In this document: positions 13,944 through 29,723 of the stretch, one piece after another | Numbering within the stretch: the first letter of the stretch is position 1 | Layout of the letters: each line of letters starts with the position of its first letter | DNA from: Actinomyces sp. oral taxon 171 str. F0337 | Lineage (GTDB): Bacteria; Actinomycetota; Actinomycetes; Actinomycetales; Actinomycetaceae | Assembly: GCF_005696555.1 (NCBI RefSeq) | Contig: NZ_CP040005.1 | Location: 930,001 to 994,000, forward strand | DNA length: 64,000 nucleotides | Direction: 5' to 3' | Notes under the pieces: model-generated | Database searches by the model: none | Told to the model about the DNA's origin: nothing | What the model saw: the letters and a program-made list of their open reading frames with translations, nothing else | Position numbers and translations under genes: made by a program

Positions 13944-14612
13944 ATGCCTCAGATGCCGACTCCGTCACCTCAGCCCAGCGCCTCCACCCCGATGCAGGTC
14001 GGTCCCCACGAGCTGTCCGTCGTCGGCGTCGTCGCGATCTCCAGGACGGCGGCCTGCACCCGGTACGCCAAGGATGCCGACCGGGCTCCGCGGATGACGG
14101 CCCGGGTCGACCTGCTGCGCATGAGCGCCTGGGAAGTCGCCTCCTTCGACCGAGTCGTGGAGCTGGCGTCGACTCACGGCATCGACGCCCTGGGGGCGGC
14201 CGAGCGCTTCACTGACGTTCTGGGCGACCTCGATGAGCGCCTGCGTCCACTGGACTGGGCCGAGCGTCTGCTCAAGACCTACATCACCTTCGGGCTGCTC
14301 ATCGACTTCGGCATGGCGCTGAGTGAGTCGTTGGAGGACCCCTTGCGCAGCGGACTCGTCCACGAGCTCAGTCAGGACCCGATCAGCACGTACGCCGTCG
14401 CCGAGCTGGAGGCGGTCATCGCAGCCGACCCGCAGCTGGCTGCCCGACTGGGGCTGTGGGGACGGCGCGTCATCGGTGAGGAGATCGGAACCTTTCAGAG
14501 GCTCCTGGGACAGTTCCCCGAGCTTCTCGGCTCGATGGCTCAGGAGCAGCTCCACTCGGTGCTGTCCCAGGGGGCCGTCTCACGCATGAGAGGGCTGGGG
14601 CTGCGGGTCTGA
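13944..14612 (+). CDS. Ferritin-like fold protein (MiaE_2-type)
   Basis: A 222-residue all-helical protein resembling the ferritin-like (MiaE-like, PF13794-type) proteins that actinobacteria keep next to a DEAD-box helicase gene. Acidic and His positions that might bind iron occur in MSAWEVASFDRV and in the later helices, but I cannot assign a complete di-iron site by eye. The biochemical role is unknown; a tRNA hydroxylase-like activity has been suggested for the fold and is not shown here. The start at 13944 is supported by the -10 hexamer placed seven bases before it. Confidence 0.72.
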   Translation: MPQMPTPSPQPSASTPMQVGPHELSVVGVVAISRTAACTRYAKDADRAPRMTARVDLLRMSAWEVASFDRVVELASTHGIDALGAAERFTDVLGDLDERLRPLDWAERLLKTYITFGLLIDFGMALSESLEDPLRSGLVHELSQDPISTYAVAELEAVIAADPQLAARLGLWGRRVIGEEIGTFQRLLGQFPELLGSMAQEQLHSVLSQGAVSRMRGLGLRV

Positions 14613-14780
14613 GCATCTCTCGCCACCCCGCGTGCGGCTGTCATGTGAGGTATCCGACAGTGGGGGTGGTGTCCGTGTCGGCGGCGTGACAGGACCAGGG
14701 CTGCGCCGGGTAAGGTGGCCGTATCCGCATCCTTATCACCCGACGTGAGAGCCACCGCTCTCATTTCTGAAGGAGTTCCC

Positions 14781-15440
14781 ATGAAGCGAAGCGTATGGGT
14801 GGCCGCGTCCGCGGCCGTCGCCCTGTCCGTCGTCCCGGTCGGTGCGGCTGCTGCTGAGACGGACCCCGCTCCTGCCGCCGAGCAGGCGGCACCGCAGGCC
14901 GGTGAGGCCAAGGCTGAGAGCCCGCAGCCCAATACGCCCGCTCCAGCCGTCCCCAACCCTGAGAACAACAAGCCCGCTCCCGCCCCGGCTCCGGCCCCCG
15001 CTCCTGCGGACGACGCAGACAAGGCCGACCCCCAGGCCCCCGGTGCCAACAATGCCGCGGTGCAGCAGCAGAACAAGCCGGCGGCTCCGGCCGAGCAGCC
15101 CCAGCAGAACCAGGGTGACCAGCAGCAGGGCGATCCCGCCGCCCCCGAGGCCGCTCCCGAGCAGCAGGCCCCTCAGGAGCAGGCGTCCGAGCAGTCCTCT
15201 GAGATTGGCGCTCCTGCGGCGTCCGATGAGAGCGCCGCCCAGGGCTCCGCGGATGTCTCCGGTGAGCAGGCCGCGGCTCCCCGTGAGCAGGCCGCGGCTC
15301 CTCGCCAGGACGGCGCTGCCGGCGCAGGTCGCTCCACCCTTGCGCAGACCGGTGCGGGGACGACCGCCGCCTGGATGGTGCTGGGCACCGGTGCGACGGG
15401 CGCTGCCATGCTCATGGCGCGCCGTAGGCTGACGTACTGA
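14781..15440 (+). CDS. Ala/Pro/Gln-rich LAxTG wall-anchored surface protein
   Basis: A 219-residue secreted protein. A signal peptide (MKRSVWVAASAAVALS, cleavage near Ala-Ala-Ala-Glu at about 26-28) leads a low-complexity body of Ala, Pro, Glu and Gln with almost no aromatic residues. A sorting signal ends the protein: LAQTG at 187-191, a hydrophobic segment, and the charged tail RRRLTY. LAxTG is the pentapeptide linked to class E sortases rather than the classic LPxTG. The start has an AAGGAG site five bases upstream. The body contains a near-perfect duplication (EQAAAPR twice). It resembles a stalk or glycosylated coat protein; A. oris GspA-type proteins come to mind, but identity is unproven. 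The RCC1 gene follows after 38 bases. Confidence 0.85.
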   Translation: MKRSVWVAASAAVALSVVPVGAAAAETDPAPAAEQAAPQAGEAKAESPQPNTPAPAVPNPENNKPAPAPAPAPAPADDADKADPQAPGANNAAVQQQNKPAAPAEQPQQNQGDQQQGDPAAPEAAPEQQAPQEQASEQSSEIGAPAASDESAAQGSADVSGEQAAAPREQAAAPRQDGAAGAGRSTLAQTGAGTTAAWMVLGTGATGAAMLMARRRLTY

Positions 15441-15478
15441 CGCGCATCGATCCTTGACGTTGAGGAGAGGTCTGGCCC

Positions 15479-16708
15479 ATGGATGACCGGATGCTCGACG
15501 GGGACAGGGTGCTGTGGTTCATTGGCGGCAGTCCTGAGCGTGCTCGGGAGGCCCTCGCCGCCGGACACGCCTGGACGCCCGAGCAGCGTGCGCAGCTCGA
15601 ACAGATCGCAGCCTCTGCCGGGTATTCCCCTCAGCAGCCCACCGGGTACCCGCCTGCTCAGCAGCAGGTGCCCGCTCAGGAGCCCGCGCCCTCGCACACG
15701 GCGCCTGGAAACATAGTGGCCCTTAACAGTGCATTCAGGGGCGACGACGCAGGTGGTGCCACCACGGACCACGGGGCTGCGGGCTACGGGGCTACTCGGT
15801 CGACTCAGTCGGCTCAGCAGTCGGCTGCGGCCGGGACCCCCCAGCCGCAGATGGCGACGCCGACGCAGCCTCAACCGCAGGGCTACAGGCTTCAGCCCCT
15901 GCCCACGGTGGCCGAGATGGAGGCGCCTCAGGACGCCACCACCCAGCGCTCGAGCAGTGCACCACGCCGCAGGTGGGTCGTCCCGGTCGTGGCGGCCAGC
16001 GTGCTCGTCCTCGGGCTGGCCGGCGGTGCTCTGGGAGGGCATTGGCTGTGGCCCGGCAAGGGGAAGGCGACCCCGTCGTCGCCCTCCGCAGCGGTGGCCC
16101 CCGCCGCCGCGAAGTCGGCGTCCCTGCGTGCCGGCAGCGGATCCTTCGTCTGCTCCTCCGGTGGCACCGGAGTCTCCTGCTGGGGCGCTGACGCCCAGGC
16201 CAACACCCAGGGCGCACGTGTCTCACCGACGGCGGTGCCCGGGCTGGAGAAGGTCAAGGTCTCAGCGCTGAGTGTGGGCAAGGGCTTCGCCGTGGCCGTG
16301 GACGACTCGGGCACGGTCTACGCCTGGGGGGCCAACGAGGTCGGCCAGCTCGGCAAGAAGACTGATGAGGCACTGGTCAACCAGGCCGTCGAGGTCGGTA
16401 AGCTGCCGGCCGTTCCCACTGAGCTCGTCTCGGGTTACGAGCACACCTGCGCGCTCACCGGGGGAACAGTCTGGTGCTTCGGCTCCAACCGCTACGGGCA
16501 GGTCAACGGTGCCGTCTCCGACACCCCGTCGGGTTTGGTGCAGGTGGACAAGATCGACGGGGCCACCCAGATCGGCACCTCCGGCTATGACAGCTGGGCC
16601 ACTGTCGACAAGGGAACCTGGACCTGGGGGAACAACTCCTGGGGGCAGGCCGACCCCTCGCAGAGCGTCGTCAATGTGGCGCCGACCCTCATTCCTGCAG
16701 AAAGCTGA
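15479..16708 (+). CDS. Membrane-anchored protein with RCC1-like repeats
   Basis: A 409-residue protein in three parts. Residues 1-160 are a probable cytoplasmic region: a short helical head (DGDRVLWFIGGSPERAREAL) and then a Gln/Pro-rich linker. One membrane segment lies at about 167-190. The exported part (about 215-405) carries three to four RCC1-type blade motifs: VYAWGANEVGQLG, VWCFGSNRYGQV and WTWGNNSWGQ, with paired cysteines (FVCSSGG/SCWG and HTCALTG/WCFG). A full RCC1 propeller has seven blades, so this one is partial or assembles with others. No signal peptide is seen; the internal membrane segment would give type II topology. GAGGAGAGG supports the start. Function unknown; binding at the cell surface is a guess. 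Confidence 0.7.
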   Translation: MDDRMLDGDRVLWFIGGSPERAREALAAGHAWTPEQRAQLEQIAASAGYSPQQPTGYPPAQQQVPAQEPAPSHTAPGNIVALNSAFRGDDAGGATTDHGAAGYGATRSTQSAQQSAAAGTPQPQMATPTQPQPQGYRLQPLPTVAEMEAPQDATTQRSSSAPRRRWVVPVVAASVLVLGLAGGALGGHWLWPGKGKATPSSPSAAVAPAAAKSASLRAGSGSFVCSSGGTGVSCWGADAQANTQGARVSPTAVPGLEKVKVSALSVGKGFAVAVDDSGTVYAWGANEVGQLGKKTDEALVNQAVEVGKLPAVPTELVSGYEHTCALTGGTVWCFGSNRYGQVNGAVSDTPSGLVQVDKIDGATQIGTSGYDSWATVDKGTWTWGNNSWGQADPSQSVVNVAPTLIPAES

Positions 16709-16742
16709 CGTCGGTATCCGCAAAAGAAGTCGGCAGAAGGAC

Positions 16743-16774
16743 AGCGCCCAGCCTCCTTCACGAGGCTGGGCGCT
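16743..16774. terminator. Bidirectional hairpin between the RCC1 and csbD genes
   Basis: A perfect 13-base stem (AGCGCCCAGCCTC with its complement) and a 6-base loop lie between convergent genes. No clear U-tract follows on either strand. Confidence 0.8.
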
Positions 16775-16795
16775 CGGCGTATTGCGCGGACGCTA

Positions 16796-16984
16796 CTACT
16801 TGTCGCCCTTGAGGCGGTTGACCGCACCCTTGATGGCGTCCTTGGCGTCCTCGGCGACCTCCTTGACCTTGCCCTCAGCCTGCTGGAGCTTGCCCTCGGT
16901 CTCGGTCTCCTTGTTGCCGGTGACCTTGCCCGTGGTCTCCTTCGCCTTACCGGCGATCCTGTCGAAGGTTCCGTTGTCGCTCAT
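16796..16984 (-). CDS. CsbD-family small stress protein
   Basis: A 62-residue hydrophilic protein with the CsbD pattern: DRIAGKAKETTGKVTGNKE near the N-terminus and EGKVKEVAEDAKDAIKG near the end, in alternating Lys/Glu helices. CsbD-like proteins are induced by general stress in many bacteria; their molecular role is unknown. GAAAGGAG precedes the ATG at good spacing. The gene stands alone, facing the RCC1 gene across a terminator. Confidence 0.9.
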   Translation of the reverse strand: MSDNGTFDRIAGKAKETTGKVTGNKETETEGKLQQAEGKVKEVAEDAKDAIKGAVNRLKGDK

Positions 16985-17244
16985 GAGAGCTCCTTTCCGT
17001 GATGAGTCTCCACGAGGGGGAGACGTAAGAGGATGGCTCGACTATACATGTGTGCATCTGAGACGGCACTCAGTATCCAGCGGGAGTTTCTATGGAGATC
17101 ACCTAGTATGTGTGATACGTCCTATTTTTGGGCTGAGCGGCTCCTCTCGTCCCTCCGGCGTCGTCCGCCACCCCTGACATCCCATAGACTTCGTACACCT
17201 CTCATTCGAGAGCGTCCCGATACCGACATTGAGGTCGATCGCCC

Positions 17245-18693
17245 ATGAGCAGTGCACCTGCGGTGGCCCCCGCCGCCACCCGCGTCGAGAACGCCGGTCT
17301 TGACATCATCTCCGAGTCCGATCGCAAGGGGCGGCCGAGCGATCTCTTCATGCCCTGGTTCGCGGCCAACATCTCCGTCCTGGGGCTGTCCTGGGGTGCC
17401 TGGGTCCTCGGATTCGGACTGTCCTTCTGGCAGGCGGTCGTCGCCGGCAGTGTCGGTGTCATCATCTCCTTCCTCCTGTGCGGTGTCGTGGCTGTCCTGG
17501 GCAAGCGAGGCAGTGCCCCCACCCTGGCGCTGTCCCGAGCGGCCTTCGGCTACAACGGCAATCGCCTGTCCGCGGCCCTGTCCTGGATTCTCACGGTCGG
17601 CTGGGAGACCGTCCTGTGCGTCTCGGCCACCCTGGCCTCGGCCACGGTGTTCCAGGCTTTGGGCTGGCACAACCAGGTTGGTGCCCAGATCCTCGGCTTC
17701 CTGCTCACCGTCGGCCTGGCCGCCAGCGCCGGCATCCTCGGCTTCGAGGCGATTATGAGGGTCCAGACCTGGATCACCTGGGCCACCGGTATCCTCACTA
17801 TCATCTACCTCGTCCTTGTCGCTCCCCAGATCAGCTTCCGCACACTCCTGGCGCTGCCCTCCGGAGGTCCGGCGGCCTTCATCGGGGCCCTGGTCATGGT
17901 GGCCACCGGCTTCGGCCTCGGCTGGGTGAACGCCGCCGCCGACTACTCCCGCTACCTGCCCCGCAAGGCCTCGACGGCCGGCGTCATCGGTTGGACCACG
18001 CTGGGGTCGGCGCTGCCCTGCGTGGTGCTCGTCTTCTTCGGCATCCTGCTGGTGGGCTCCGACGCCGAGCTCGGCCAGGCCATCAACACCGACCCCATCG
18101 GCGCCCTGACCACGATCCTGCCCGCATGGTTCCTCGTCCCCTTCGCGATCGTCGCCATCCTGGGGCTGGCCGGTGGCATCATCATGGACCTGTACTCCTC
18201 GGGCTTGTCGCTTCTGGCGACCGGTCTGCCCGTGCGCCGGCACGTGGCCACCTCCATCGACGCCACCATCATGACTGTGGGCACCATCGCCGTGATCTTC
18301 GGGGCCGATGACTTCCTCGGGCCCTTCCAGGGGTTCCTCACCACCCTGGGAGTCGTCATCGCCGCCTGGGCCGGAGTCATGGTCGCCGAGGTCATTCTGC
18401 GCAGGCGTGACTACGACGAGGAGGCCCTCTTCACGCCCGACGGCGTCTACGGCTCAGTCAACTGGGAGGCCATCGCCCTTGTGGCTGCCGGTTCCGTCGT
18501 CGGCTGGGGGCTGGTCGTCAACTCGGCCGCCTCCTGGTTGTCCTGGCAGGGCTACCTGCTCGGGCCCCTCGGGGGGCGCGACGGGGCCTGGGCCGGAGCC
18601 AACCTCGGTGTGCTGGTCGCTCTGCTCATCGGTGTGCTCGGGCACCTCGTCCTCGGCCGAGGCCGGGTCGTCCGCCAGGAGGCCCATTCGTGA
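17245..18693 (+). CDS. NCS1-family purine/cytosine permease
   Basis: A 482-residue transporter with about twelve membrane segments. The NCS1 family imports nucleobases and related compounds (cytosine, purines, hydantoins) with cations. Typical features are the N-terminal DLFMPWFAANISVLGL, the helix 3 region APTLALSRAAFGYNGN and WVNAAADYSRYLPR. Its stop overlaps the start of the phosphorylase gene by four bases (GTGA), so the two are translationally coupled. Annotation by family alone would say 'cytosine permease', but the context points to a purine base or nucleoside as cargo. The region upstream (about 17000-17240) is AT-richer and probably holds the promoter. Confidence 0.9.
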   Translation: MSSAPAVAPAATRVENAGLDIISESDRKGRPSDLFMPWFAANISVLGLSWGAWVLGFGLSFWQAVVAGSVGVIISFLLCGVVAVLGKRGSAPTLALSRAAFGYNGNRLSAALSWILTVGWETVLCVSATLASATVFQALGWHNQVGAQILGFLLTVGLAASAGILGFEAIMRVQTWITWATGILTIIYLVLVAPQISFRTLLALPSGGPAAFIGALVMVATGFGLGWVNAAADYSRYLPRKASTAGVIGWTTLGSALPCVVLVFFGILLVGSDAELGQAINTDPIGALTTILPAWFLVPFAIVAILGLAGGIIMDLYSSGLSLLATGLPVRRHVATSIDATIMTVGTIAVIFGADDFLGPFQGFLTTLGVVIAAWAGVMVAEVILRRRDYDEEALFTPDGVYGSVNWEAIALVAAGSVVGWGLVVNSAASWLSWQGYLLGPLGGRDGAWAGANLGVLVALLIGVLGHLVLGRGRVVRQEAHS

Positions 18694-19574
18694 ACGACAC
18701 CGTCACAGGCTTCACCCTCGAGCCTGAGCGTCTGGAGGCCCTGAGCGCCTCTGCCGGAGTGCAAGGCCCTGGTCCGGCCATGGAAGGCGCCCATCAGATC
18801 GCCCGTCGTACCGGTGTGCCTTGCCACGACCTCCTGGTGGTCCTGGGGTCCGGTACCGCTGACGCCTTGGCCGCTTGGGGCGAGCCGGCCGTGAGCCTGC
18901 GTTTGTCCGATCTGCCCGGTGTCCTGGTCCCGGTAGCGCCGGGACATGAGGACCGCCTCGACTTCTATACCGTCGGTCGTGGCCGGAGGATAAGCGGACA
19001 AGAGGACGGGGAAGAGCGGCGCGTCCTCGTGGCCCGCGGACGATCCCACCTCTACGAGGGGCACGGGCCCGCGTCGGTGGTCGCCCTGGCACGTATCGCG
19101 GCCGCTGCCGGTGTGCGCGGGGCCGTCCTGGTCAACGCCGGTGGCTGTCTGCGCAGCTGGCGGATCGGCGAGGTCATGACGATCACCGACCACCTCAACC
19201 TCACCGGCTCCTCGCCCTTCGACGGCCCGGTCTTCACCGACGTTCGCGGCGTGTGGGACGACGAGCTCACCGACATCCTGAGCGGTGTCACAGAAAAGGC
19301 AGGCGTCTATGCCGCTCTGCGCGGCCCGGAGTACCAGACCATGGCGGAGGCGCGGATGCTGCAGTCCGTCGGTGCCGACTGCGTGGGCATGTCCACCGTC
19401 CTGGAGGCCGTCGCCCTGCACCAGCTCGGTGTGCGCGTGGCCGGCATGAGCATCGTCTCCGACCTGTCCCTCGCGCAGACGCCCACCGAGCCCGACGAGG
19501 TCGTCCGCCTCGCGGCTGGCGCGCACACGACGATCGCCGCCGGCATCGAGGCGGTGCTGGCGGCGATGTCCTGA
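18690..19574 (+). CDS. Purine nucleoside phosphorylase, PNP/MTAP (class I trimeric) family, with altered purine-site residues
   Basis: A 294-residue phosphorolytic enzyme that should split purine nucleosides to base and ribose 1-phosphate. Phosphate-site motifs are present: VVLGSGTADAL, GRSHLYEGH and LVNAGGCL. The purine-site segment reads RGPEYQTMAEARML and later GMSTVLEAVAL and AGMSIVSDLS. In ordinary trimeric PNPs the first segment is GPxFET (Glu201 in human PNP) and the last is xxTN (Asn243). Here these positions are Gln216 and Asp258. The change to Asp is also found in methylthioadenosine phosphorylases. GTG start, four-base overlap with the NCS1 permease. The predicted preference for 6-aminopurine nucleosides is an inference from residues. 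Confidence 0.85.
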   Translation: MNDTVTGFTLEPERLEALSASAGVQGPGPAMEGAHQIARRTGVPCHDLLVVLGSGTADALAAWGEPAVSLRLSDLPGVLVPVAPGHEDRLDFYTVGRGRRISGQEDGEERRVLVARGRSHLYEGHGPASVVALARIAAAAGVRGAVLVNAGGCLRSWRIGEVMTITDHLNLTGSSPFDGPVFTDVRGVWDDELTDILSGVTEKAGVYAALRGPEYQTMAEARMLQSVGADCVGMSTVLEAVALHQLGVRVAGMSIVSDLSLAQTPTEPDEVVRLAAGAHTTIAAGIEAVLAAMS

Positions 19575-19618
19575 GTGTTCGACGCGAGTCGTGTCGGGGT
19601 CCCGTTATCCCTTTCCGG

Positions 19619-19999
19619 TCAGTTCACGCCCATGAACATGTAGGCGCGCGTCACCTTGCCGTCGACGTCGCGGAAGACGGTGTCGACTCCGCGCCCGACG
19701 ACATCGCCGCTCGGGGCGGTCATCGACCAGCGCAGCAATAGCGCGTCGCCGGACTCCATGCGCTGGTCATAGCTGAAGGTCAGGCCCTGGCCCGCAATGC
19801 GGTCGTTGTGGACACGGCCGATGTGCTCGGCGATGTCGGCTGTCCCTGTGAGGGTCAAGGCGGGTGAGGAGATGTGCAGCGACCCGTGCGGTGCCCACAT
19901 CTGCTCGATGAGTGCAAGGCGCTTTCCGGCGTCGGGCTCGGTCCAGGTGCTCAGGTAGGCCGCGTCAAAGTCGGCTCCGGAGCGGGTGGTGTCGGTCAT
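19619..19999 (-). CDS. SnoaL/NTF2-like protein
   Basis: A 126-residue protein with the SnoaL-like (NTF2 cone) pattern: DAAYLSTWTEPDAGKRLALIEQMWAPHGSLH, then DIAEHIGRVHND and VDTVFRDVDGKVTRAYMFMG. The fold occurs in isomerases, hydrolases and small-molecule binding proteins, so no reaction can be named. GAGAGGA precedes the ATG. It is divergent from a TetR gene, and both promoters are overlapped by a repeated palindrome, so it is very probably the regulator's target. Confidence 0.82.
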   Translation of the reverse strand: MTDTTRSGADFDAAYLSTWTEPDAGKRLALIEQMWAPHGSLHISSPALTLTGTADIAEHIGRVHNDRIAGQGLTFSYDQRMESGDALLLRWSMTAPSGDVVGRGVDTVFRDVDGKVTRAYMFMGVN

Positions 20000-20022
20000 G
20001 AGTCGTCCTCTCGTCAGGTTAA

Positions 20023-20037
20023 GTTGACGGTGTCAGC
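20023..20037. promoter_or_regulatory. Probable TetR operator, copy 1 (imperfect)
   Basis: GTTGACGGTGTCAGC matches the perfect palindrome 26 bases away at 12 of 15 positions. It lies between the divergent SnoaL-like and TetR genes, close to the likely transcription start of the SnoaL-like gene. Confidence 0.6.
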
Positions 20038-20062
20038 ATAACCGGGAAGTTGACTATGTCAA
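20034..20062 (-). promoter_or_regulatory. Probable promoter of the SnoaL-like gene
   Basis: On the minus strand TTGACA (20062-20057) is followed, after a 16-base spacer, by TATGCT. The -35 lies inside the perfect palindrome and the -10 runs into the imperfect one, so a bound repressor would block both. Confidence 0.55.
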
Positions 20063-20063
20063 C
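20049..20063. promoter_or_regulatory. Probable TetR operator, copy 2 (perfect palindrome)
   Basis: GTTGACTATGTCAAC has perfect 6-base arms around a 3-base centre and lies 20 bases before the TetR start codon. It is the better of two copies in the same divergent gap. Confidence 0.68.
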
Positions 20064-20070
20064 ATGTGGG

Positions 20071-20076
20071 TAGTCT
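20071..20076 (+). promoter_or_regulatory. -10 hexamer TAGTCT of the TetR gene (leaderless start)
   Basis: TAGTCT ends six bases before the GTG, with no ribosome-binding site between. The perfect palindrome just upstream covers the -35 region, pointing to autoregulation. Confidence 0.45.
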
Positions 20077-20082
20077 TGGATC

Positions 20083-20676
20083 GTGAGCCCTCGTGATCCA
20101 GGCCCGACGCGCGCCGCCATCCTCGACGCTGCTTCAACGCTGCTCGAGGACAGAGGGCCTGAGTCGGTGACGCTGCGTGCCGTTGGAGAAGCTGCCGGTG
20201 TGTCCCGCTCGGCGCCCTATCGTCATTACGCGGATAAGGCCGCGCTCATGCGCGCCCTGGCGGGAAGGACACTGCGGCAGATCGCAGAGCGGATTCGTCG
20301 CGGTGCGGAGCGGCATCGGGATACGTGGCAGCGGTTGCGTGCCGGCTGCCGGGCCTATATCGACTACGCAGTCGAGTGTCCCCACCACTACCAGCTGGTC
20401 TTCGGGGATGCTCCGATTGCCGAGCCGGACCCAGGACTGGAGGAGGCTGCTGACGACGCCATGGCCGCCGTCGGTGAGCTCGTTGCTCAGGCCCAGGATG
20501 CTGGTCTGCTGCGTCCCGGCCCCACCCGCGAGATCGCCACCGTCGTCTGGGTCCTGCTTCATGGACTCGCAGCCCTGCAGATCACGGGGCATCTCCATGA
20601 GCCCAGGACCATTGACGGGAACGAGCGTCTTGCGGACCTGCTCGACCTGGCTCTGGAACAGTTCCGGCCGTCATGA
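20083..20676 (+). CDS. TetR/AcrR-family repressor
   Basis: A 197-residue regulator. The N-terminal HTH reads RAAILDAASTLLEDRGPESVTLRAVGEAAGVSRS with SAPYRHYADKAALM, the typical TetR layout. The rest is a helical ligand domain with the WHG-like segment (ATVVWVLLHGLAALQITGH), which is common in repressors of this subgroup. The effector is unknown. It probably controls itself and the divergent SnoaL-like gene through the two palindromes in the gap. The GTG at 20083 agrees with a leaderless start. A CCGGCCG/CGGCCGG inverted repeat (20664-20702) spans its stop codon and may help end transcription before fumC. Confidence 0.92.
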   Translation: MSPRDPGPTRAAILDAASTLLEDRGPESVTLRAVGEAAGVSRSAPYRHYADKAALMRALAGRTLRQIAERIRRGAERHRDTWQRLRAGCRAYIDYAVECPHHYQLVFGDAPIAEPDPGLEEAADDAMAAVGELVAQAQDAGLLRPGPTREIATVVWVLLHGLAALQITGHLHEPRTIDGNERLADLLDLALEQFRPS

Positions 20677-20760
20677 GCCACGGCGACGATGCCGTCGGCC
20701 GGCAGCGATCTGAGACGTGTCTGGGACGCCGGTCCTCGCACGGCAGGGACCATGAGCGCC

Positions 20761-20766
20761 TAACCT
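20761..20766 (+). promoter_or_regulatory. -10 hexamer TAACCT of fumC (leaderless start)
   Basis: TAACCT ends seven bases before the fumC ATG. No ribosome-binding site is present in the gap. Confidence 0.48.
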
Positions 20767-20773
20767 TGCACCT

Positions 20774-22210
<1,437 letters not shown>

Positions 22211-22444: not shown

Positions 22445-24274
22445 ATGAACCTGCCACGACGCACCATCCTCACCACACTGCCCGCTGCGGCGGGACTCCT
22501 GGGCCTGGGGGCCTGTTCCACCGGAGGGGCCACTGCGCAGGCCTCCTCCACGGCGTCGTCGCAGGCGCCCACCGACACGAAGCTCGCCCTGGACAACGCG
22601 GCCTGGCGCTACGACGCGGAGCACAAGGTCTACTACCAGCTGGGACTGCGCTACGTGGCCACGCCCCAGGCCTCGGACTACGAGACCCTGGGCATCTACG
22701 TGCCCGGCGCCTACTTCACCGGAAAAGACAACGGAAACGGCACCTATACGGCCACGGTCAACCCCTCCGGCGCCGTCGGCAGCCTCACCGCCGCCACCGC
22801 ACCCACCGTCTTCCCGGTCAACACCCCGGGATACTCCGCCCAGAAGCCGCCCACCGAGTACTCCTACGACACCATCAAGGCCTACATGGAGGCCGGTTTC
22901 ATTTACGTCCATGCCGGCCTGCGCGGCAAGGACTCCAACTCCCAGACCTACTCCGGCAACGCGCCCTGGGGCGTCACCGACCTCAAGGCCGCCGTGCGCT
23001 ACCGGCGCTACAACTCCGCCTCCGTGCCCGGCGACGCCGCGAAGGTCTACGTCTTCGGGCACAGCGGGGGAGGGGCGCAGAGCGCCGTCGCAGGAGCCTC
23101 CGGGGACAGCGAGCTGTTCGCCCCTTACCTGGCCGCCCTGGGTGCCGCCACCACTGACACCAGCGGCAAGGCCCTGTCCGACGCCGTCGCCGGAGCCATG
23201 TGCTGGTGCCCGATCACCAGCCTGGACAGCGCCAATGCCGCCTACGAGTGGAACATGGGACAGTTCGCCTCCTCCGACACTCGGGCCGAGGGAACCTGGA
23301 CACGGGCCTACTCCCAGGACCTCGCGGCCGCCTTCCCCACCTACCTCAACGGGCTGAAGCTCACCGACTCGCAGGGCAAGCCGCTCACCCTGGAGTCCTC
23401 CTCCCAGGGCACCTTCCTGTCGGGCTCCTACTACGACCACCTCGTGGGGGTCATCCAGAAGTCCCTCAATGACTTCCTGGCGGCCACCACCTTCCCCTAC
23501 ACGCCCTCGTCGACCGAGATGGCGGGGATGGAGCGCGGTGGAGGCGGCGGGGCGCCGTCGGGAACCCCGCCCAGCGACGCCGGCGGCACGCCACCCAAGG
23601 GTGGGACGTCAAAAGGCGGCAGTCAGGGCAGTAGCAAGTCCACCACCTACAAGACGGTGGAGGAGTACATCGCCTTCCTCAACTCCTCCTCGCAGTGGGT
23701 CACCTACGACGCCTCCAAGAAGACTGCGACGATCACCGGCCTGCAGGGCTTCGTCACCTCCCAGAAGAACGCCTCCAAGGACGTGGGGGCCTTCGACGGC
23801 GTGGGCCGCGCCCAGACCGAGAACCTCGTCATGGGCTCGGGGGAGACCAAGCAGCACTTCTCCTCCCTGAGCCGCGAGGTCATCTCCAAGGGGCAGTCCA
23901 GGTACTCGGGGCTGTCGGGCTGGAACAAGGACTACGGCGTCGCCGGCTACGAGAAGGACCTGGGTGCCAAGGACTCGGTCGGCACCGACATGGTCACGCG
24001 CGTGGCGATGTATGACCCCCTGTACTACCTCACCCAGGACTCCAAGGGGCGGGGCAGCTCCACCATCGCCCCCGCCTGGCGCATCCGCACCGGCATCACC
24101 CAGGGCGACACCGCCTCCACCGTCGAGGTGAACCTTGCCCTGGCGCTCCAGCAGGCCGGAGCCGGCAGCGTCGACTTCGCCACTATCTGGGGACAGGGGC
24201 ACACGATGGCCGAGCTGACCGGCACCGGCGAGGAGAACTTCATCGCCTGGGTGACCAAGCAGGCGGCCTCCTGA
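22445..24274 (+). CDS. Tannase-like (subtype B) esterase, Tat-type lipoprotein
   Basis: A 609-residue exported alpha/beta hydrolase. The N-terminus combines a twin-arginine motif (RRTIL) with a lipobox (GLGAC, Cys24), so it should be folded inside, exported by Tat and lipid-anchored. The nucleophile elbow is GHSGGGA (Ser207). Conserved surroundings (YVHAGLRGKD, TDLKAAVRYRRYN, CWCPITSLDSANAAYEWNMG, and a late GQGHTMAEL with the likely catalytic His) resemble subtype B tannases and related esterases. A Gly/Ser/Lys-rich linker sits at about 360-400 inside the lid region. Members cleave galloyl or similar plant phenolic esters; the substrate here is unproven. GGAGGGA supports the start. Confidence 0.8.
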   Translation: MNLPRRTILTTLPAAAGLLGLGACSTGGATAQASSTASSQAPTDTKLALDNAAWRYDAEHKVYYQLGLRYVATPQASDYETLGIYVPGAYFTGKDNGNGTYTATVNPSGAVGSLTAATAPTVFPVNTPGYSAQKPPTEYSYDTIKAYMEAGFIYVHAGLRGKDSNSQTYSGNAPWGVTDLKAAVRYRRYNSASVPGDAAKVYVFGHSGGGAQSAVAGASGDSELFAPYLAALGAATTDTSGKALSDAVAGAMCWCPITSLDSANAAYEWNMGQFASSDTRAEGTWTRAYSQDLAAAFPTYLNGLKLTDSQGKPLTLESSSQGTFLSGSYYDHLVGVIQKSLNDFLAATTFPYTPSSTEMAGMERGGGGGAPSGTPPSDAGGTPPKGGTSKGGSQGSSKSTTYKTVEEYIAFLNSSSQWVTYDASKKTATITGLQGFVTSQKNASKDVGAFDGVGRAQTENLVMGSGETKQHFSSLSREVISKGQSRYSGLSGWNKDYGVAGYEKDLGAKDSVGTDMVTRVAMYDPLYYLTQDSKGRGSSTIAPAWRIRTGITQGDTASTVEVNLALALQQAGAGSVDFATIWGQGHTMAELTGTGEENFIAWVTKQAAS

Positions 24275-26241: not shown

Positions 26242-26492
26242 AAGCCCGCCCGGGGTCGCAGCCTGGGCATGCAGTGCGGGAATGGTTCGCGCTGCTGCGG
26301 TGTTGAGTGGGGGCAGCTCGTCGATACCTTCGACGTGTCGATGGTGAGTACCTGGGTGTTTGCTTGCAATTCTGCACCAATCGTCTTGGGAAACGCTGCC
26401 ACCTGATAAATCGGCGGGTGGCGGCTGGTACGGTGGCGACACGCCATCAGGGCGCGCCGCCACAGGCCATGAGAGGACACCCGGCACCTGCA

Positions 26493-27362
26493 ATGAGCAG
26501 CACCATTACCTTCGATGCCGTCACCAAGTCGTACCCGGCTGGGAGGGGTGCCGGATCCGGTTCTCCAGCCGTCGACTCCTTCACGGCCCGTATCGAGGCC
26601 GGCACCACCACCGTCCTGCTGGGATCGTCCGGCTGCGGCAAGACGACCCTGCTACGCATGGTCAACCGCATGGTGGAACCCTCCAGTGGACGGGTCCTCA
26701 TCGATGACGATGACGTCGCCACCCGCGACGCCGTCGCCCTGCGCCGCTCCATCGGCTACGTCATGCAGAACGCGGGGCTGCTGCCGCACCGACGCGTCAT
26801 TGACAACATCACCCTCGTGCCCCGCCTCCAGGGCGCCGACCGCCGCGACGCCCGGCGCCGGGCCCTCAAGCTCATGGACATGCTCGACCTCGACCGCGAC
26901 CTGGCTGGACGCTATCCCCACCAGCTCTCCGGCGGCCAGGCCCAGCGCGTCGGAGTGGCCCGGGCCCTGGCAGCCGACCCCGAGGTGCTCCTCATGGACG
27001 AGCCCTTCGGCGCCGTCGATCCTCTTGTGCGTCGTGACCTCCAGCGCGAGATGGTCCGTATCCAGGCCGAGCTGGGTAAGACGATCATCTTCGTCACCCA
27101 CGACGTCGACGAGGCCCTTGCCCTGGGCGACGAGATCATCCTCCTGCGCGAAGGCGCCCAGGTCGCCCAGCGCGGCAGCGGCCCCCAGCTGCTGGCCGAC
27201 CCGGCTGATGACTTCGTCGCCCGCTTCCTCGGCCTCGACGACGCCGCACGCCAGCTGAGGCTCAAGGACGTCGCCGAGTCCCGGATCATCCTGGACCGGG
27301 CCGGCCGCGCCGTCGGGCGCCTGGCCGACGAGTCCTCTGCGGAGGCGGAGGAGCGGGTATGA
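26493..27362 (+). CDS. Osmoprotectant ABC transporter, ATP-binding protein
   Basis: A 289-residue ABC ATPase of the OpuA/ProV-like group for betaine, choline or similar quaternary amines. Walker A is GSSGCGKTT, the signature is LSGGQAQRVGVARAL, Walker B is EVLLMDEPFGAVD and the H-loop is THDVDEA. There is no C-terminal CBS pair, unlike ProV. The start is uncertain: ATG at 26493 fits homologues, while an ATG at 26469 would add eight residues; neither has a strong ribosome-binding site. It leads a four-gene operon joined by 4-base overlaps. The 270 bases upstream are not coding and presumably hold the promoter. Confidence 0.9.
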   Translation: MSSTITFDAVTKSYPAGRGAGSGSPAVDSFTARIEAGTTTVLLGSSGCGKTTLLRMVNRMVEPSSGRVLIDDDDVATRDAVALRRSIGYVMQNAGLLPHRRVIDNITLVPRLQGADRRDARRRALKLMDMLDLDRDLAGRYPHQLSGGQAQRVGVARALAADPEVLLMDEPFGAVDPLVRRDLQREMVRIQAELGKTIIFVTHDVDEALALGDEIILLREGAQVAQRGSGPQLLADPADDFVARFLGLDDAARQLRLKDVAESRIILDRAGRAVGRLADESSAEAEERV

Positions 27363-28063
27363 GCTGGGTCCTGGCCAACCTGCCCACCATTGCCGGGCAC
27401 CTGCTGGCCCACCTGCTCCAGGCGGTTCCCGCGATCATCGCCTCCTTCGTCCTGGCGATCCCCATCGCCCGGCTGGCCCGCGTGGCCCGTCCGTTGCGCG
27501 CTGTTCTCGTGACCGGCTCCTCGCTGCTCTACGCCATCCCGTCCCTGGCCCTGTTCGTCATCCTCCCCATCATCCTGGCCACCGGCATCCGCGACCCGTT
27601 CAACGTCATCGTGGCCCTGACCCTTTACGGGCTGGCGCTCCTGGTGCCGGCCACCGCTGATGCGCTCGACGCCGTTGACGCCCGGGTCCTGGATGCCGCC
27701 ACCGCCATGGGCATGGGACGCCTGCGCTGCTTCCTCACCGTCGAGCTGCCGCTGGCCGGTCCCGCCATCCTCACGGGCCTGCGCGTGGTGACGGTCTCAA
27801 CGATCTCACTGACCACCGTCGGAGCGGTTCTCGGTGTGCGCAGCCTCGGCTGGCTGTTCACCGACGGCTTCCAGCGCGGCGTCACCGCAGAGATCCTTAC
27901 CGGTCTAGTGTCCACCGCGGCCCTGGCTCTCATCCTGGACGGGCTCGTCCTTGCGCTGGGGCGGCTGTGCCTGCCCTGGACATGGAAGCGCGTCGGAACC
28001 TCCGGAGCGGCCGTAGCCGGTGTCGGCGCCGCGACCTCGGGGAGTCAGGAGGGCAAGGCGTGA
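27359..28063 (+). CDS. Osmoprotectant ABC transporter, permease 1
   Basis: A 234-residue membrane protein with about five or six segments, of the OpuBB/ProW type. The EAA loop is recognisable in LDAATAMGMGRLRCFLTVELPLAGPAI. Its ATG overlaps the ATPase stop by four bases. It should form a heteromeric channel with the second permease. The last 25 residues are Ala/Gly/Ser-rich and cytoplasmic or disordered. Confidence 0.9.
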   Translation: MSWVLANLPTIAGHLLAHLLQAVPAIIASFVLAIPIARLARVARPLRAVLVTGSSLLYAIPSLALFVILPIILATGIRDPFNVIVALTLYGLALLVPATADALDAVDARVLDAATAMGMGRLRCFLTVELPLAGPAILTGLRVVTVSTISLTTVGAVLGVRSLGWLFTDGFQRGVTAEILTGLVSTAALALILDGLVLALGRLCLPWTWKRVGTSGAAVAGVGAATSGSQEGKA

Positions 28064-28740
28064 GGTTCGTCCTGGCCGCCCTGGCCTACATCGCCGATCC
28101 CGCTCACTGGGGCGGGGCCATGGGGATCGGCCCGCTGCTTGTCCAGCATGTCCTCTACTCCCTGGCCGGTGTCCTCATCGCCGCCCTCATCGGGGTCCCC
28201 GCCGGCTGGTGGGTGGGGCACACCGGACGTGGACGCACCTGGGTTCAGTCGCTCAGCGGCGCGGCCCGCTCCCTGCCCACCCTCGGCCTCATCACGCTGT
28301 TCGGCCTCGTGCTCGGGGTCGGCCTGAGCGCCCCCATGATCGCCTTCGTCATCCTGGCCCTGCCCAGTGTCCTGGCCGGAGCCATGAGCGGGGTGCGGGC
28401 GGCCTCGACCATGGCCGTCGACGGCGCCCGGGCCAGCGGCATGAGTGAGCTTCAGGTGCTCAGTCGGGTCGAGATCCCCCTGGGGGCGCCGCTGCTCGTC
28501 GGCGGGCTGCGCTCGGCCAGCCTCCAGGTCATCTCCACCGCCACGCTGGCTGCATACACCGGCGCCGGCGGGCTCGGCCGACTCATGTTCCTGGGCCTCA
28601 AGACTCAGGACTACGTCATGATGCTCGCCTCAGCGCTCCTGGTCATCTCCCTCGCCCTGGCCTCCGAGGCCATCTTCGCCCTCATCCAATGGGGTGTCAC
28701 GCCCCCGGGTGCCCGGCAGCACCGGAAGGAATCAGCATGA
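28060..28740 (+). CDS. Osmoprotectant ABC transporter, permease 2
   Basis: A 226-residue membrane permease, homologous to the preceding gene product. The EAA loop is DGARASGMSELQVLSRVEIPLGAPLL. The GTG at 28060 overlaps the previous stop by four bases (GTGA) and puts the first membrane segment in register with the family; the longer reading from 27967 runs inside the upstream gene. Two different permeases per transporter is the OpuB/OpuC arrangement. Confidence 0.9.
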   Translation: MRFVLAALAYIADPAHWGGAMGIGPLLVQHVLYSLAGVLIAALIGVPAGWWVGHTGRGRTWVQSLSGAARSLPTLGLITLFGLVLGVGLSAPMIAFVILALPSVLAGAMSGVRAASTMAVDGARASGMSELQVLSRVEIPLGAPLLVGGLRSASLQVISTATLAAYTGAGGLGRLMFLGLKTQDYVMMLASALLVISLALASEAIFALIQWGVTPPGARQHRKESA

Positions 28741-29723
28741 CCGCACCGTCCAACTCGCGCCCCGGCAAGCAGCTGACCCGACGCGGCCTGCTGGCCGGCG
28801 TCGGTGCGACCACCGGCCTGCTCGCCCTGAGCGCCTGCTCCGATACCGATCCCTTCGCCGTCGACCGCGCCTCGGGGGGCTACTCCGGCGGCCCGATCAT
28901 CATCGGCAGCCAGCAGTACTACTCCAACGAGATCATCGCCGAGCTCTACGCCCAGATGATGGAGAAGGTCGGCCTGAGCGTCACCCGCGAGTACCAGATC
29001 GGCCAGCGGGAGGTCTACCTGCCCGAGCTCGAGGCCGGCAAGATCCATGTCATCCCCGAGTACGGCGGCAACCTGCTGGAGTACTACAGCAAGACCTCCG
29101 CCTCAGGCAGCCCCACCACCGCGACCCCCGCCCGCACCGCCGGCGATACCGCCTCCATCCAGGACACCCTGCTGAGGACTCTGCCGCACTCGCTGACCGT
29201 CCTGAACCCGGCCGAGGCGACGGATCAGGACTCCCTGACCGTCACCAAGGCCACCGCCCAGGCCCACTCCCTGACCTCCATCGGCGACCTGGCCTCGCTC
29301 GGGCGGCCCATCACGATCGCCGCGAACTCGGAGTTCACCACCCGCCCATACGGCCCCAAGGGCCTCAAGGCCGTCTACGGCGTCGACGCCTCCGTCACGC
29401 CGGTGGAGGACTCCGGCGGGCCTCTGACCGTCAAGGCCCTCACCGACGGCACCGTCGACGTCGCCGACATCTACTCCTCCGATCCCGCCATCAGGGCCAA
29501 GGACCTCGTCATCCTGTCCGACCCCCAGATGCTCATCCTCCCGCAGAACGTCACCCCGCTGGTCTCCGCCTCAATGCCGGCCATCGCGGCCACCGCCATC
29601 AACCGGGTCTCGGCCCTGCTGACCCCCGACGAGCTGCGCTCCCTCAACCATCGCTCAACCGGCGAGAAGCTCAGCTCCAAGGTCATCGCCACTGACTGGC
29701 TCACCTCCAAGAAGCTGCTCTGA
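28737..29723 (+). CDS. Osmoprotectant-binding lipoprotein (OpuBC-like), Tat-type signal
   Basis: A 328-residue substrate-binding protein of the glycine betaine/choline ABC class. The signal has twin arginines (TRRGLLAG) and a lipobox ending at Cys36 (LALSAC), suggesting Tat export and lipid anchoring. The mature part begins like OpuAC/OpuBC domains: GPIIIGSQQYYSNEIIAELY and EAGKIHVIPEYGGNLLEYY. Aromatic residues that could cage a quaternary amine (Tyr in these segments) are present, though exact ligands are not assigned. The ATG overlaps the permease stop by four bases and has GGAAGGA upstream. It completes the operon. Confidence 0.9.
   Translation: MTAPSNSRPGKQLTRRGLLAGVGATTGLLALSACSDTDPFAVDRASGGYSGGPIIIGSQQYYSNEIIAELYAQMMEKVGLSVTREYQIGQREVYLPELEAGKIHVIPEYGGNLLEYYSKTSASGSPTTATPARTAGDTASIQDTLLRTLPHSLTVLNPAEATDQDSLTVTKATAQAHSLTSIGDLASLGRPITIAANSEFTTRPYGPKGLKAVYGVDASVTPVEDSGGPLTVKALTDGTVDVADIYSSDPAIRAKDLVILSDPQMLILPQNVTPLVSASMPAIAATAINRVSALLTPDELRSLNHRSTGEKLSSKVIATDWLTSKKLL

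Follow-up and report, generated by a model that had tools for sequence, protein, structure and literature searches.

The window analysed here, a stretch of 64,000 nucleotides from the genome of Actinomyces sp. oral taxon 171 str. F0337, contains a gene for a trimeric purine nucleoside phosphorylase (PNP) and, immediately before it, a gene for an NCS1-family permease. The two genes overlap by four bases (GTGA), where the permease stop meets the PNP start. These genes, the codons discussed below and other genes of the window are listed in Table 1. No riboswitch that would name a ligand was found near the operon (bases 14500-20800), where one sub-threshold match (sR44, 20207-20256) was seen, and at eight related loci only tRNAs reached the Rfam gathering scores, with no riboswitch among the matches.

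Table 1 Genes and codons of the window, numbered from its first nucleotide
Feature	Position	Strand	Remarks
RCC1-repeat protein	15479-16708	+	
NCS1-family permease, 482 aa	17245..18693	+	conserved partner; PF02133, E 4.1e-37
Gln/Asp-type trimeric purine nucleoside phosphorylase (PF01048)	18690..19574	+	294 aa, GTG start
Codon CAG, Gln216, replacing the base-binding Glu (human Glu201)	19335..19337	+	motif GPEYQT
Codon GAC, Asp258, replacing the base-binding Asn (human Asn243)	19461..19463	+	motif SIVSD
Codon of Pro268, where canonical PNPs have the His that binds the 5'-OH	19491..19493	+	by alignment; gappy loop, column less certain
Class II fumarase	20774-22210		downstream of PNP
Subtype A tannase	22445-24274	+	after fumarase; NF041555, 855.4 bits (cut-off 550)
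OpuAC-type (glycine betaine) ABC transporter, four genes	26307-29720	+	

The PNP has the PNP_UDP_1 fold, finds its best relatives among the trimeric PNPs and gave a good monomer in an AF2 prediction. Its best PDB sequence match was the M. tuberculosis PNP 1g2o (E 2.9e-42, tied with two near-identical entries), in alignment with which GPEYQT pairs with GPHYET and SIVSD with SLVTN. The alignment is ungapped around both sites, which ruled out misaligned columns, so Gln216 and Asp258 stand where the M. tuberculosis enzyme has its base-reading Glu and Asn, as a sequence-only reading of this DNA had claimed. The Glu and Asn that read 6-oxopurines are thus absent from the protein. In addition, Ser257 replaces the Thr beside the base-reading Asn, which we take to be human Thr242, and the column of Pro268 is presumably that of Mtb His243, the His of the 5'-OH site. 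Ser54, Arg118, His120, Tyr122, Asn149, Ala150, Tyr215, Met234 and Ser235 are as in normal enzymes, and with them the Ser, Arg, His, Tyr, Asn, Ala, Met and Ser of the phosphate and ribose sites are retained; this retention of catalytic residues ruled out a dead enzyme. Every NCBIfam model matched by the protein scored under its cut-off, among them TIGR01698 (154 against 302.6 bits), PRK08202 (185.6 against 218), TIGR01697 (148.5 against 197.1) and TIGR01700 (125.7 against 293.35); a relative with the usual Glu/Asn pair (L142) passes the cut-offs of TIGR01698, PRK08202 and TIGR01697. The DeoD models (TIGR00107 and PRK05819) were not among the 11 NCBIfam families that matched the PNP at E values up to 0.001.

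The Gln/Asp pair, which the same reading had suggested seeking in other actinobacteria, was present in all 205 proteins collected by three homolog searches (the best 120 of each, overlapping), 203 of them counted by pattern and two (P0144 and P0161) missed by the pattern but seen by eye to carry it. One of these homologs, from Actinomyces naeslundii (P0113), is 83% identical to the window PNP. Since such lists favour the close relatives of the queries, this count tests constancy inside the clade, not its borders. A family search yielded 57 non-self loci of the Gln type, with Asp in 56 of them and Ala in the remaining one (L042). Among the best 80 of 586 relatives in a contig scan, 20 were Gln/Asp, 57 Glu/Asn, one Glu/Ala, one Gln/Ala (L094) and one Arg/Asp (L082, a visibly broken assembly). 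L042 and L094 are the Gln-type PNP of an Actinomyces-labelled MAG, UW_MP_ACT2_2, with Ala for Asp258 and the permease still adjoining. Carriers of the pair include Actinomyces oris (L075), A. oricola, Trueperella pyogenes, Arcanobacterium, Scrofimicrobium, Miniimonas arenae and Tessaracoccus, together with MAGs labelled Propionibacteriaceae and Coriobacteriia. As the pair is found throughout the clade, a sequencing error or a lone mutation was ruled out.

Across 297 genomes of the order, a clade profile gave 12 matches at E values of 1e-93 or lower, separated by a gap from all others (1.6e-66 or higher); the residues of 30 loci from this search were Gln/Asp at those 12, Glu/Thr at three and Glu/Asn at 15. 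Across 396 genomes of the phylum, only the window's own gene scored better than 3.2e-71, and the 28 new loci at which residues were read, as opposed to the weaker matches, were all Glu/Asn (L205-L232). A tree of 75 rows was built by a quick search with columns 216, 257 and 258 masked, given SH-aLRT supports and rooted at the midpoint. In it a branch with a support of 42 separated the 51 Gln-type rows (L042, L082 and 49 Gln/Asp); the grouping that also takes in two degenerate paralogs had a support of 100, and the Glu/Asn rows had 99. Gln/Asp enzymes therefore group apart from Glu/Asn enzymes.

The two degenerate paralogs, one in the window genome (L004:952-1770, corresponding to G000:C1:185166-185984) and one in a same-genus genome (L073:430-1296), group with the Gln/Asp rows in the tree but lack the GMS Ser as well as the catalytic Ser, His and Asn. 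In the window genome the paralog gene is followed by one for a glutamine amidotransferase (PRK07567).

The active-site pattern of the window protein was shared by 61 of 70 Gln/Asp rows, and further residues of the clade, Cys153, Trp157, Arg211, Glu214, His244 and Ser260, are unlike those of Mtb PNP. Of 106 Glu/Asn rows, 104 have a His in the 5'-OH stretch, a loop with small gaps whose column is less certain than 216 and 258, as against 10 of the 70 Gln/Asp rows and none of the seven Glu/Ala or three Glu/Thr rows. The absence of this His from 60 of the 70 Gln/Asp rows suggests that the ribose 5' end may differ too.

The coupling of PNP and permease, also part of the sequence-only reading, proved to be conserved. 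We defined a Gln/Asp-level PNP in a 200-genome sample of the family as a listed match of at least 48% identity, which gave 68 genomes (a second fragment in G062 was left out, and the degenerate paralog of G187 stood at 47%); residues were read directly in 59 of them. All 68 had a permease match on the PNP contig. It lay directly upstream on the same strand in 64 (in 63 of these the match ends were no more than 300 bp apart, and in one 355 bp), was divergent within 300 bp in three, and was 2.8 kb off on the other strand in one; the match was fragmented or cut in G178, G194, G153 and G163. A same-genus genome outside this count, G156, has only weak PNP matches and, on contig C43, fragments of the permease with identities of up to 90%; its PNP-permease operon may have decayed. 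Of the 22 clade loci in the contig scan, a count that takes in L082, 21 had a permease match. The 57 Glu/Asn loci of that scan, covered with flanks of at most 8 kb per side (some of which stop short), showed no permease match, nor did 43 Glu/Asn loci with flanks of about 1.5 kb; these sets overlap in species. The permease is a real partner of the Gln/Asp PNP. The exception, L081, lacks the permease and has upstream a 2',3'-cyclic phosphodiesterase/3'-nucleotidase-like gene (below the model cut-off) and a HAD hydrolase gene, neighbours that point to a nucleoside substrate. This region of a Propionibacteriaceae MAG (L081:849-8714) appears to contain an inverted duplication, perhaps an assembly artefact, in which the PNP, HAD hydrolase and nucleotidase-like genes each occur twice.

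What the permease carries is less clear-cut than its partnership. The cytosine site of CodB includes Gln105 and Trp108 (PMC9379551). In a weak alignment with CodB (E 0.28), Trp108 is kept as Trp120 of the window permease and Gln105 falls on Thr117; a profile search listed no CodB. Members of the same permease family without a PNP adjoin an isochorismatase-like cysteine hydrolase at L192, L195 and L199, and a xanthine-permease/OHCU-decarboxylase protein lies on the other strand near the permease at L185, L188, L191 and L196, these neighbour clusters having been annotated from one or two members each. These neighbours are mixed in kind and point to no one cargo. The earlier suggestion that the permease would move a purine rather than cytosine stands weaker than stated, since the same permease family is also found beside Glu/Ala and Glu/Thr PNPs and beside the isochorismatase-like hydrolase. 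Judged from sequence, the permease could be a nucleoside importer, which is as possible as its being a mover of the base.

Five Glu/Ala PNPs (L063, L064, L066, L067 and L068) and three Glu/Thr PNPs (L167-L169) adjoin the NCS1 permease, which lies downstream in these cases and is 52-57% identical to the window permease. Every permease-linked PNP with residues read has lost the Asn, to Asp, Ala or Thr (and, in L042, to Ala together with Gln). Among the unlinked PNPs that were read, the Asn is missing from L081 (Asp), from L150 (Glu/Ala), which lies at the end of a contig, and from the degenerate L004 and L073; all the others keep it. The permease-linked trait is thus the loss of the Asn and not Gln/Asp alone, and the hydrogen-bond logic of adenine recognition does not explain the Glu/Ala and Glu/Thr enzymes that stand beside the same permease family.

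For the window PNP itself, we propose that it is probably a trimeric-class phosphorylase that has given up 6-oxopurine nucleosides (inosine, guanosine) for 6-aminopurine ones, with adenosine and/or 2'-deoxyadenosine as the likeliest substrates. We favour this reading because the pair is clade-wide, the phosphate and ribose residues are kept, and the engineered pair cleaves adenosine-type nucleosides. The mutagenesis to which the earlier reading had referred is indeed on record: human PNP Glu201Gln:Asn243Asp cleaves adenosine-based nucleosides that the wild type does not, its reported substrates including 2-fluoro-2'-deoxyadenosine, cladribine and 2-fluoroadenosine (PMC2799393), and in K. lactis PNP the Asn-to-Asp change alone (N256D) gives the order adenosine > inosine > xanthosine > guanosine (PMC5074518). 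For human Asn243Asp, a rise of about 5000-fold in the kcat for adenosine is stated in PMC6128611. In the proposed mechanism, Asp258 would accept a hydrogen of the exocyclic 6-amino group and help at N7, and Gln216 would donate its amide hydrogen to N1, which in adenine carries none. Phosphate would attack C1' as in other PNPs, yielding adenine and (deoxy)ribose-1-phosphate. The permease would import the nucleoside or move the base, and the adenine would be salvaged by APRT, a gene for which is present in the window genome. Among the points against the proposal are the slowness of the human double mutant (in one table its fusion-protein form has a kcat/KM for F-dAdo of 568 per M per s; PMC2799393), the lack of the 5'-OH His in most Gln/Asp rows, the Glu/Ala and Glu/Thr PNPs beside the same permease family, and the existence of a clade member, L042, with Ala in place of the Asp.

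A 6-aminopurine enzyme would have company in the cell. The other three PF01048 matches of the window genome are a DeoD-type hexameric PNP, an MTA/SAH nucleosidase-like gene whose score exceeds the TIGR01704 cut-off, and the degenerate paralog L004. The DeoD model TIGR00107 matches 184 of the 200 family genomes, 135 of them over the cut-off, the weaker ones being perhaps other members of the superfamily. An adenosine phosphorylase would therefore be partly redundant, and the presence of DeoD suggests that the new enzyme would add an import-coupled use of outside nucleosides and would not be the sole route from adenosine to adenine. The idea that the Gln/Asp PNP replaces DeoD was unsupported, given how widespread TIGR00107 is. 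The distribution of adenosine deaminase (TIGR01430, 181 of 200 family genomes) separated nothing visible.

Other substrates have to be weighed against this proposal. It is unlikely, in our estimate, that the enzyme takes both 6-oxopurine and 6-aminopurine nucleosides. K. lactis N256D accepts both kinds (PMC5074518), and the window PNP is the only intact trimeric-type PNP found in its genome; however, the replacement of Glu by Gln would remove the acceptor for the N1-H of 6-oxopurines, and a further, separate PNP match with Glu/Asn-level identity was seen in at least 16 of the 68 Gln/Asp genomes, as expected if the two enzymes do different jobs. Residues were read for two of these 16 second PNPs (L071 and L072), and both are Glu/Asn. 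We regard as quite improbable an enzyme resembling methylthioadenosine phosphorylase (MTAP) that was reached from the PNP side, with a 5'-modified 6-aminopurine nucleoside (5'-deoxyadenosine or 5'-methylthioadenosine) as its substrate. The loss of the 5'-OH His in most Gln/Asp rows would suit it, as would the base-site Asp: in line with the earlier statement that MTAPs carry an Asp, Asp230 of the S. mansoni enzyme makes two hydrogen bonds to adenine (PMC5147791), and we infer that the positions match. Nevertheless, the MTAP model TIGR01694 gave the window PNP 50.5 bits, far under its cut-off of 274.85, the genome has its MTA/SAH nucleosidase-like gene, some clade members retain the His, and no methionine-salvage genes were seen among the annotated neighbours, which comprise some neighbours at some of the loci.

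We would give very little weight to a pyrimidine substrate, cytidine or deoxycytidine, which would fit a cytosine-permease-like partner. It keeps its small probability because SmPNP2, a trimeric-class enzyme, is reported to act on cytidine roughly as well as on adenosine and inosine (PMC6128611); the partner does belong to the NCS1 family, and the permease-linked sisters have lost the Asn in ways other than to Asp. SmPNP2, however, keeps Glu and Asn and, as described there, differs at Ala118Leu, Thr244Ala and Pro257Ile (PMC6128611). The position matched to its Leu118 is Ala150 in the window PNP and is Ala in 68 of the 70 Gln/Asp rows (those with the pattern printed), one clade member, L040, having Ser. 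The weak match of the permease to CodB and, in that alignment, a Thr where CodB has its cytosine-binding Gln105 may also tell against a pyrimidine.

Taken over all permease-linked PNPs of the Actinomycetales, a broader interpretation is possible, although we lean somewhat against it as a whole: these enzymes would have quit 6-oxopurines, losing the Asn in three ways and keeping the catalytic residues and an NCS1 transporter in varied gene orders. The Gln/Asp type would then be the first natural enzyme derived from a trimeric PNP to serve 6-aminopurine nucleosides alone, its sisters could serve other bases, and the permease would import the nucleoside or the 6-aminopurine. Searches of an open-licence library listed no natural Gln/Asp enzyme. 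It is at precisely these two positions that the choice of base by PNPs has been accounted for and altered by engineering, and a natural clade with the same pair would show that evolution had reached the engineered solution. Such a clade would be a ready source of adenosine-type trimeric phosphorylases for prodrug work and for making nucleoside analogues, and would aid in finding the function of an uncharacterised actinobacterial NCS1 permease. The name 'purine-nucleoside phosphorylase' on Gln/Asp proteins may also mask a change of substrate.

Compared with the trimeric PNPs of M. tuberculosis (1g2o), Cellulomonas (1c3x/1qe5) and human, the window PNP differs by Glu to Gln and Asn to Asp, and also by Thr to Ser beside the base Asn and by Pro for the 5'-OH His. 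MTAPs likewise lack the His at the 5' site and have Ser at the other base position, where the window PNP has Gln. They share with it the Asp at the base-reading position, if the columns correspond (PMC5147791), but the sequence of the window enzyme belongs with PNP. The adenosine activity predicted for it is shared by the DeoD-type hexameric PNPs, in which an Asp is likewise the key base-side residue (PMC5074518); these form a different subfamily, represented by a separate DeoD gene in the window genome. The closest counterparts are engineered ones: human Glu201Gln:Asn243Asp (hDM) has the same two substitutions in the same columns (PMC2799393), and K. lactis N256D has one of the two, again in the same column (PMC5074518). 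Unlike them, the window enzyme is natural, its pair is clade-wide, and a permease gene adjoins it.
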